A stretch of 64,000 bases of DNA, from NCBI GenBank assembly GCA_903865435.1, contig CAIPJS010000086.1:1-64000 (forward strand), written 5' to 3'. The notes beneath the pieces were generated by a model that did not search any database, had not been told where the DNA came from, and saw only the letters and a program-made list of their open reading frames with translations. The position numbers and the translations under genes were made by a program. The stretch is from an uncultured Bacteroidota bacterium. GTDB lineage: Bacteria; Bacteroidota; Bacteroidia; Chitinophagales; Chitinophagaceae. This document shows, piece after piece, positions 31,009 to 34,670 of this stretch; positions within the stretch are counted from its first letter, which is position 1, and every line of letters starts with the position of its first letter.

Positions 31009-32403
31009 ATGGAATACAGAATTGAGAAAGACACGATGGGTGAAGTAAAAGTACCTGCAAATGTTTATTGGGGTGCGCAAACACAAAGAAGTATTGACAA
31101 TTTTAAAATTGCACAGGATATTAATAGAATGCCTAAAGAAATTATTAAAGCATTCGCGTATTTAAAAAAAGCTGCAGCGCTTACCAATTTGGATGCGGGC
31201 ATTTTACCTAAAGAAAAATCGGATTTAATTGGACAGGTTTGTGATGAAATTATTGCAGGTAAATTAGACGATCAATTTCCTTTAGTCGTTTGGCAAACTG
31301 GAAGTGGTACACAGAGCAATATGAATTTGAACGAAGTAATTGCTTACCGTGCGCATGTTATTAAAGGTGGCAGTTTAAGTGATAAAGAAAAATTCCTGCA
31401 TCCAAATGATGATGTAAACAAGTCTCAATCCTCTAATGATACCTTTCCAACGGCGATGCATATTGCAGCCTATCAAATTTTAACAGGTACCACTATTCCT
31501 GGTATCACTGCTTTAAAAAATACATTAGAAGCCAAAAGCAAGGATTTTATGCATATTGTTAAAATAGGTCGTACCCATTTTATGGATGCAACTCCCTTAA
31601 CATTAGGACAAGAGCTAAGCGGATATGTGAGTCAATTAAGTCACGGTTTAAAAGCAATTCATAATACTTTAGCACATTTAAGTGAATTGGCTTTAGGCGG
31701 TACTGCAGTAGGAACAGGTATTAATACGCCTAAAGATTATTCAGTAAATGTAGCCAAGCATATTGCTAAATTAACAGGCCTTCCATTTATCACAGCAGAA
31801 AATAAATTTGAAGCATTGGCTGCTCATGATGCGATTGTAGAAGCACATGGTGCTTTAAAAACTGTAGCTGTAAGCTTAATGAAAATTGCCAACGATGTGC
31901 GCATGTTATCCTCTGGACCACGCAGCGGTATTGGAGAAATTTTTATTCCAGACAATGAACCAGGTTCTTCTATTATGCCTGGTAAAGTAAACCCTACTCA
32001 ATCAGAAGCTTTAACCATGATTGCTGCTCAAGTAATGGGCAATGATGTTGCCATTAATATTGGTGGCTCTATGGGCCATTTTGAATTGAATGTATTCAAA
32101 CCAGTGATGATTTATAATTTCTTACACAGTGCTCGTTTAATAGGTGATGGTTGCGTAAGCTTTAATGAAAAATGTGCTGTAGGATTAGCGCCGATAGAAG
32201 CCAACATTAACAAACATGTAAACAATAGTTTAATGTTAGTCACTGCACTCAATACTAAAATTGGTTATTACAAAGCTGCCGAAATTGCACAGAAAGCACA
32301 TAAAGAAGGGACTACCTTAAAAGAAATGGCGGTGAAATTAGGCTATGTAACCCCTGAAGAATTTGATGCATGGGTGATTCCTAAAGATATGGTCGGTTTG
32401 TAG
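31009..32403 (+). CDS. fumC: Class II fumarate hydratase
   Basis: [27 protein letters not shown]. Confidence 0.97.
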
Positions 32404-32407
32404 TTTT

Positions 32408-32872
32408 GAAGATTCAATGTGATTTAATATTCCACTGCTTCTCAGCTCGCCATGACGCTAAAAAATAGAAAACCAAACTAAAAATTAGAACTCGTGCTTT
32501 GCACTCAAACAGCTAATTTTTTGATCGTTTGATTTTCTATTTTTATTTACGCTATGGCTCAATGTTCAGCACTGGAATATTATTCACTTTTGAATCTTCT
32601 TTATTTAGTTAGGGGGCAAAGAGTATTAATTCTCTTTTTCGCGAAGTTTTGTTATAGAGTTCATCAGTGAATATTGTATTTCACTCCTGAACTTCGAGAC
32701 TAAATTTTAATTTAAAAACTATAATCATATTAAGTTTTAAAATTAAAAAATCTAATAATTTTTGCAAATCAAAGATTTGCTTGGTAAAAAAGTCAGCATG
32801 TCTGAGCACGTAGTGCGAGTTCTGACTTTTAGTTAGAATTTATGATTTTTAGCGTCATGGCGAGCAGAGAAG
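32408..32872. repeat. Composite inverted-repeat (MITE/REP-like) intergenic element
   Basis: Large imperfect palindrome 32408-32599; inverted copies of GCTCGCCATGACGCTAAAAA at about 32445-32464 and 32846-32866; several further hairpins between. Confidence 0.7.
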
Positions 32873-32948
32873 GATGAAATATAATATGCACAGATGAATT
32901 ATTCTCTTGAAAGCGCAGCAATGAAATATGTCATACAATAGTGAACTC

Positions 32949-34574
32949 TTAGAATACTCTTTCTCCGTTTAAATACGTCTTCAATACTTTAACGTGTAAA
33001 ATGCTATCAGTAGGTACTTTCATTAAGTCTTTATCTAGGATAATAAAGTCGGCCTTCTTCCCTATTTCAATACTACCCACTTGTTTTTCCATTCTATTCG
33101 CTTTTGCGGCCCAAATGGTCATACCACGAATGGTTTGTTCACGTGTCAATGCATTTTCCATTTGGAAACCATCTGCAGGGAAACCTTTGCTGTCTTGTCT
33201 TGCTACCGCAGCTAAAAAAGTTTTGAAAGGATTGATTTCTTCAACAGGAAAATCGGTACCTAAGGGCAACCAATTATTTTGCGCCAACAATTGTTTAAAT
33301 GCATATCCGGTTTTTAATCTTTCCTCACCCAATCTTGCGCCTGCCCAATACATATCGCTGGTGGCATGTGTTGGTTGGACAGATGGAACGATGTTATTGT
33401 CTCCGAAATAATGTAAGTCTGCCGGATCCACAATTTGTGCATGCTCTATTCTCCATCTTTTATCATTCTTTCCTTTTAAATATTTCGCATATACTTTTAA
33501 TATGGTTCTGTTGGCACTATCTCCAATGGCATGGGTACACATTTGAAAATCGGTACCAATTAATTTAGCAGCGATGCTGTCAAAATGCGCAGGGCTACTT
33601 AATAAAAAGCCCGACCAGCCTGCTTTATCGGTATAGGGTTGTATCAAACAAGCGCCTCTTGATCCTAAAGCACCATCTCCGTATACTTTAATTCCTTTCA
33701 CGGACAATCTATCCGTTACATAACCACCACCTGTAAAATATTTAGAAGTATATGTACTTGGTTTGTCACTTAACATCACATACAAACGCATTTTTAAATC
33801 ATTCGATTTTTGCAATGCATCCACTTGATCCACTGCATCTGAACTTAGTCCGCAATCTGTTACTGTTGTTAACCCTGTTGCAAAACAGTTTTGTTGTGCC
33901 GCAGTTAACCAATCTTTATAATCTTCATGCGTCGCTTCGGGTATTTTTTTTTCTACTACTTTAACTGCATTGTCCACTAACAAGCCCGTTAATTTTCCAT
34001 TTTGCATAATGAACAAACCACCTTCCATAATTTGTCCGGCTTTAACACCAGCCAATTGTAAAGCATAATCATTTGCAATACAAGCATGGCCATCGACTCT
34101 TTCTAAAATAACAGGTCGATCTGGAAATAAACTATTTAATTCGGCATTCGTAGGAAATTCTTTACCTGGAAAACGATTTTGATCCCATCCCCTTCCCTTA
34201 ATCCATCCTTTCCCAGGATGTTTGGCAGCAAAGGCTTTCACTCTTTCAATGGCTTCGGGCCAACTGGGTACAAACATCAAATCAACCGCAAAAAGAGATT
34301 GTCCATACCCTAAAAAATGCGCATGCGCATCTATAAAACCAGGATATACAATGGCCTCATGTGCATTGACGACACTATCCGATTGGTATTCTTTTAAAAT
34401 TTCATCATTGGTACCTACTGCCACTATTTTACCATCTTGCACCGCCATGGCCTCGGCCATACTAAATTCATTATTCACTGTATAAATTTGCGCATGATGC
34501 ACAATTAAATCTACTCTTTGATGAATGCAAGCACTAAATAATAATATGGTTGCCAATGCAAATAATAAACGCAT
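32949..34574 (-). CDS. Amidohydrolase-family lipoprotein (YtcJ-like)
   Basis: YPGFIDAHAHFLGYG; THAIGDSANR; lipobox LFSAC when started at MRLLFALATILLFSAC (34574). Confidence 0.88.
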   Translation of the reverse strand: MRLLFALATILLFSACIHQRVDLIVHHAQIYTVNNEFSMAEAMAVQDGKIVAVGTNDEILKEYQSDSVVNAHEAIVYPGFIDAHAHFLGYGQSLFAVDLMFVPSWPEAIERVKAFAAKHPGKGWIKGRGWDQNRFPGKEFPTNAELNSLFPDRPVILERVDGHACIANDYALQLAGVKAGQIMEGGLFIMQNGKLTGLLVDNAVKVVEKKIPEATHEDYKDWLTAAQQNCFATGLTTVTDCGLSSDAVDQVDALQKSNDLKMRLYVMLSDKPSTYTSKYFTGGGYVTDRLSVKGIKVYGDGALGSRGACLIQPYTDKAGWSGFLLSSPAHFDSIAAKLIGTDFQMCTHAIGDSANRTILKVYAKYLKGKNDKRWRIEHAQIVDPADLHYFGDNNIVPSVQPTHATSDMYWAGARLGEERLKTGYAFKQLLAQNNWLPLGTDFPVEEINPFKTFLAAVARQDSKGFPADGFQMENALTREQTIRGMTIWAAKANRMEKQVGSIEIGKKADFIILDKDLMKVPTDSILHVKVLKTYLNGERVF

Positions 34575-34670
34575 AATAATAGTTTGAGAAAATAAAAGTA
34601 ATGAAAATATAAGCAAGAATCCTATAAAAAAGGATAAAGAAAAGGTCACCAAACGAAAAGAGTGAAGCCC

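Follow-up and report, generated by a model that had tools for sequence, protein, structure and literature searches.

A family of long palindromes with a conserved hairpin tip between convergent genes of Sediminibacterium-like bacteria

In bacteria, a family of MITEs or palindromic repeats is as a rule restricted to a single lineage, and its copies have the ends in common, not the middle. Hairpins similar to those described here are common in the intergenic DNA of Bacteroidetes. ERIC/NEMIS-type repeats are palindromes of about 100 to 200 bp at 3' intergenic positions and are, to our knowledge, restricted to gamma- and betaproteobacteria; compared by description rather than by sequence, they resemble the family reported here (the E family) as long 3' intergenic palindromes. 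With MITEs, the E family shares short, non-coding, palindromic, multicopy units dispersed in intergenic DNA, and its deltaproteobacterial members have target duplications and inverted ends common to the copies. It differs from MITEs in that the apical hairpin sequence, and not the terminal arms, is conserved across phyla, in that no parent transposon was found (the end-pattern search covered the deltaproteobacterial bin), and in the single or facing double hairpins fixed between convergent genes in the Sediminibacterium clade.

REP, BIME, and REPIN elements, for which GTAG- and CGTC-tagged repeats served as the comparison (PMC3733652), are likewise 3' intergenic palindromes, often in inverted pairs and vertically inherited, but the E-family unit is much longer (about 190 to 240 bp), carries another conserved motif, and is accompanied by no RAYT in the host genome. 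Bidirectional intrinsic terminators also lie between convergent genes with a stem and then a T-run on both strands; the E family departs from them in its conserved large loop sequence, its very long stems, and the ordinary terminators that coexist with it. Set against the layout of an intrinsic terminator (G+C-rich stem, short loop, T-run), the T-run is present, the loop is long, and the stem is A/T-rich. Integron attC sites, considered from sequence only, differ in that E-family copies lie outside cassette arrays. No structured-RNA family of Rfam 15 scored above threshold, and the open-access literature, searched with the core strings and the topic, gave no relevant match.

Two facing palindromes between fumC and an amidohydrolase gene

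The window, by which we mean the whole stretch of 64,000 nucleotides analyzed, comes from a freshwater Sediminibacterium-like member of the Chitinophagaceae with a genome of 2.33 Mb in 95 contigs. The features at the locus are as follows.

31009 to 32403, + strand: fumC, the left convergent neighbor, with its stop at 32403 and an orthologue in 138 of the 147 genus genomes.
32408 to 32599, + strand: E1, the first long imperfect palindrome, in the orientation A-core-C (fold z of -9.7; self-inverse match over 32408 to 32599).
32478 to 32527, + strand: apical core of E1, CTAAAA-ATTA-GAACTCG-hairpin-CTCAAACA-GC-TAATTTTTTGATCG, identified by sequence and motif family.
32617 to 32644, - strand: remnant of P (AGAGTATTAATTCTCT), a hairpin unrelated to E, with its apex deleted; P is intact at the fumC locus of about 30 relatives.
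32660 to 32898, - strand: E2, the second family palindrome, inverted relative to E1, with the outer stem TTCATCAGTGAATATTG / ATATTATATTTCA..
32700 to 32784, no strand assigned: K, an insert of about 85 bp nested in the C arm of E2 and made up of two small hairpins; the same insert is found in host copy C93 and at several loci of relatives, where sister copies are without it.
32783 to 32832, - strand: apical core of E2, CTAAAA-GTCA-GAACTCG-CACTACGTG-CTCAGACA-TGC-TGACTTTTTT.
32949 to 34652, - strand: amidohydrolase gene, the right convergent neighbor, with its stop at 32949.

Between the two genes (32404 to 32948) there is no ORF of at least 60 amino acids, in agreement with the sequence-only reading, which had described a single 435-bp element bounded by inverted copies with a 20-nt core in common. 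The inverted repeats are real: the window has exactly two occurrences of GCTCGCCATGACGCTAAAAA, at 32445 to 32464 (+) and 32846 to 32865 (-), and with three mismatches permitted the same two sites are the only ones in the window, where 0.01 would be expected by chance. The inverted arms, 32438 to 32511 and 32799 to 32872, extend over 74 nt with 78% complementarity, and their similarity extends inwards as AACTAAAA..AGAACTCG. A single element with two terminal repeats is ruled out, since each arm closes a palindrome of its own and two family members flank the remnant of another hairpin. In each hairpin the 20-nt core forms one of the flanks, so both ends of the 435-bp interval lie within a palindrome, one in E1 and the other in E2; what the family conserves is the hairpin tip, deeper in. 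E1 starts 4 bp past the fumC stop codon, and 32404 to 32604, folded alone, reaches -64.4 kcal/mol at the z given above; the fold of E2 is less striking (z of -3.2). E1 and E2 face each other across what remains of P.

P (AATACTATTTCGAACGAACNTTTGAGCGMAGCGATYGAGAGAGAAATAGGTATT) represents a second palindrome family, found at the same locus in relatives, where it is intact in L279, L285, and L286 and doubled in G006. The insertion point of K within E hairpins is identical at several loci, between GAGTC and ATAGCGT (window 32700 to 32784; G000 C93:13428-13520), and in the host genome K is confined to two E copies. With uninserted sister copies existing, K is a mobile module nested inside another.

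A dispersed family in the host and its genus

The host genome carries copies at five other places, after rplL, asd, purC, lysC, and an erpA-like gene (names by ORF reading). The host copies align to the common sequence CCATGACGCTAAAAA ... CTAAAAnnnnGAACTCG-hairpin-CTCARACATGCnnnnTTTTTTAACG ... TTTACGCTATG, and their outer stems differ from locus to locus yet are complementary inside each copy. Across the genus, the core pattern was found in 48 of 147 genomes, with at most 11 copies each (0 to 1 for a reversed-pattern control), the named relatives being freshwater Sediminibacterium or Chitinophagaceae MAGs. We extracted 112 genus copies and scored the 99 with both neighbors, neighboring genes being assigned through ORF position and similarity rather than curated annotation. 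Ninety of the 99, in about 15 locus groups, lie between convergent genes, compared with a baseline of 7 of 50 adjacent gene pairs in the window; a baseline pooled with flanking pairs is biased low. Whenever two copies lie within 360 bp of each other they face (+ then -; 17 of 17), and 15 of these 17 pairs combine one short-tip and one long-tip hairpin. The E1/E2 pair is of the same facing kind, at a wider spacing.

Identity between orthologous copies is 79% for the long-tip type and 83% for the short-tip type, against about 70% and 66% between paralogues; paralogues from the same genome are hardly closer, at 72% and 67%. Because orthologues are more alike than paralogues, most copies are old and inherited in place, and because same-genome paralogues are no more alike than those from different genomes, activity in Sediminibacterium is mostly long past; concerted evolution within a genome is unsupported. 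The sequence-only reading had held that conservation in place together with a lack of any second copy would point to a locus-specific terminator or RNA; most copies are indeed conserved in place, but the host genome has the further copies described above. In Sediminibacterium, where the outer stems are mostly locus-specific, we could read neither a clean target duplication nor a terminal repeat common to the copies.

At the fumC locus, relatives have the E and P hairpins in either order, inverted blocks, deletions of E or P, and K present or absent, and on the fumC tree these states are scattered among sister species. G130 and G132 carry the E1 type here too; it is missing from G020 and from G153 and G168, and the one outer arm left in the last two fits deletion. 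A fresh insertion of E1 in the host strain is unsupported on both counts. Within G151, the doublets at L045 and L048 match at 93.5% identity along 430 bp and have unrelated flanks; at the L048 locus, four relatives have ordinary terminators only and the close relative G155 has a half-element (half a hairpin). The doublet has therefore been copied as a unit, at least on occasion. As for occupied and empty sites, the L048, L045, and fumC loci show differences in presence and absence, although some of the absent sites hold remnants and are deletions.

Copies at L086 to L097 (in G161 and G085; also in G023) make up a divergent subfamily whose tips (CCCCAACAAGTTGGGG) are long and G+C-rich; it retains only GAACTCG/CTCAAACA, and one of its members sits at the same fumC locus. 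Many of the compared genomes are fragmented, with family copies frequent at contig ends; those at L062, L074, L076, L098, L103, L260, and L262 lie within about 200 bp of one. Long palindromes seem to break assemblies.

The hairpin tip beyond the genus

The distribution is patchy: a sample of Chitinophagaceae gave matches in 3 of 299 genomes, from 2 of 104 genera, with one genus beyond the host's among them, yet the core is present in other phyla. Strict pattern matches were found in a deltaproteobacterial MAG, Finegoldia magna, two Peptoniphilus, Peribacteria, Bacteroidales, a Bdellovibrionales MAG, and others, with up to 39 core copies per genome outside the genus; MAG names are as deposited, and misbinning is possible for some, such as a contig labelled Comamonas. 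The consensus of the apical core is CTRAAA-n4-GAACTC-[hairpin]-TCARACA-(T)GC-n4'-TTTTTTAACG, with stems compensated in distant taxa, and TGC and TTAACG recur across taxa though they lie outside the search pattern. There are 29 different inner stems, and all four pairs are complementary in 144 of 166 copies, versus 26% when partners are swapped between taxa. Conservation across phyla is highest in the unpaired tip (GAACTC, TCARACA, TTAACG), the stems and outer arms vary freely, and the outer ends depend on the taxon.

In the deltaproteobacterial bin, the 39 cores lie within an element with inverted ends GATGAAGTCGTAACAAGTCCCCGC. Of 19 measurable copies, 10 are flanked by consistently placed direct repeats of 6 bp or longer, versus 9% of swapped controls, and the target duplications are 8 to 9 bp long. 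Target-site duplications, which the sequence-only reading had suggested looking for, were thus seen in these members and not cleanly in Sediminibacterium. The same bin has 153 matches to the ends, against 39 cores, so core-less derivatives exist; as these share the terminal repeats, movement may not require the core. The ORFs of five candidate end-match stretches in this bin, inspected by eye for an autonomous parent, contained no recognizable transposase, and no genome yielded a transposase whose ends match, the end pattern having been searched in this bin. What links the deltaproteobacterial MITE to the Sediminibacterium family is the core of about 50 nt alone. A virus-borne origin was rejected on a 25-base pattern, which had no match in 2.9 million viral contigs.

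In distant genomes (L357 to L363, L355 to L356, L381, and L172), a small hairpin CTTTCTTT..AAAGAAAG, followed by GGAAAGAAACTC or AAAAGAACCAAAAAATCAAGGC, lies upstream of the family hairpin, and the two are possibly part of a larger composite element. At L256, in Finegoldia magna DSM 20470, hairpin units form a tandem array with a 274-bp spacing, partly N-masked, near a 5S rRNA gene.

Origin and possible roles of the family

E1 and E2 are, more likely than not, members of a horizontally spread, non-coding, non-autonomous (MITE-like) palindromic family with a conserved hairpin tip. The dispersed MITE-like repeat family proposed from the window alone is borne out by the five other host places, the uniformly facing doublets, the duplicated 430-bp doublet, and the target-site duplications of the deltaproteobacterial members. 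Non-autonomous transposition would account for the anatomy and for these duplications, and survival at the sites of least harm for the placement between convergent genes. We infer that horizontal transfer brought the family into the freshwater Sediminibacterium clade and that a transposase acting in trans moved it, the deltaproteobacterial case corresponding to a putative 8- to 9-bp staggered insertion. Insertions would have survived almost exclusively between convergent genes, where nothing is disrupted, and the copies would then have been stationary for a long time, changing as hairpins were deleted, stretches inverted locally, or inserts nested within them. Termination in both directions, from an A-tract, stem, and T-tract on either strand, is plausible as a by-product and may aid retention.

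The hairpins might instead be primarily bidirectional intrinsic terminators of common origin, with the RNA structure under selection and no recent mobility. Nearly all copies do lie just past the stop codons of convergent genes, the A-tract/stem/T-tract layout reads on either strand, each doublet gives both genes a hairpin in the direction of the longer T-run, and compensated stems and orthologues kept in place suit such a role. However, at L048 and L049 both genes have their own ordinary terminators with the element in between, at host copies C77, C93, and C23 one gene has its own, and element-free relatives simply have ordinary terminators. The stem is A/T-rich in the Sediminibacterium clade, a window scan under a strict definition found no terminator-like site, and termination needs no conserved GAACTCG/CTCARACA tip. 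We regard this account as rather doubtful. Because ordinary terminators coexist at several loci, termination would not be the family's main reason for existence, and a terminator role for the hairpins is possible but secondary.

It is rather unlikely that the tip is a structured single-stranded DNA or RNA site for a specific protein, such as a hairpin-recognizing recombinase, a phage-type integrase, or a chromosome-organizing factor, with the outer arms as passengers. The unpaired tip is what phyla share most, while stems and arms change freely and the ends vary by taxon, as such a site would lead one to expect, but no associated gene lies near any inspected copy and the core-less deltaproteobacterial copies have the same ends. 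REP/BIME/REPIN elements mobilized by a RAYT (Y1 transposase) would account for inverted palindrome pairs in 3' intergenic regions, as in BIMEs; they are very improbable here and largely refuted, for the RAYT that the sequence-only reading had proposed to look for is absent from the host genome, the Y1 genes of the genus belong to 37 genomes, almost all of them larger and without the element, and REP-type units measure 20 to 40 bp. A chance or purely locus-specific palindrome, for all the inversion and deletion history peculiar to the fumC locus, is refuted by the many dispersed copies and the low chance expectation.

For the MITE-like family that we favor, a further and more tentative suggestion is that the tip may be a functional structured module for a conserved RNA- or single-stranded-DNA-recognizing factor, spread across phyla inside MITEs with unrelated ends. 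With a middle common to several phyla and ends that differ, what recognizes the tip becomes testable. The core motif is also searchable, and so gives a handle for annotating the intergenic palindromes of many MAGs, several contig ends at which assemblies break among them.
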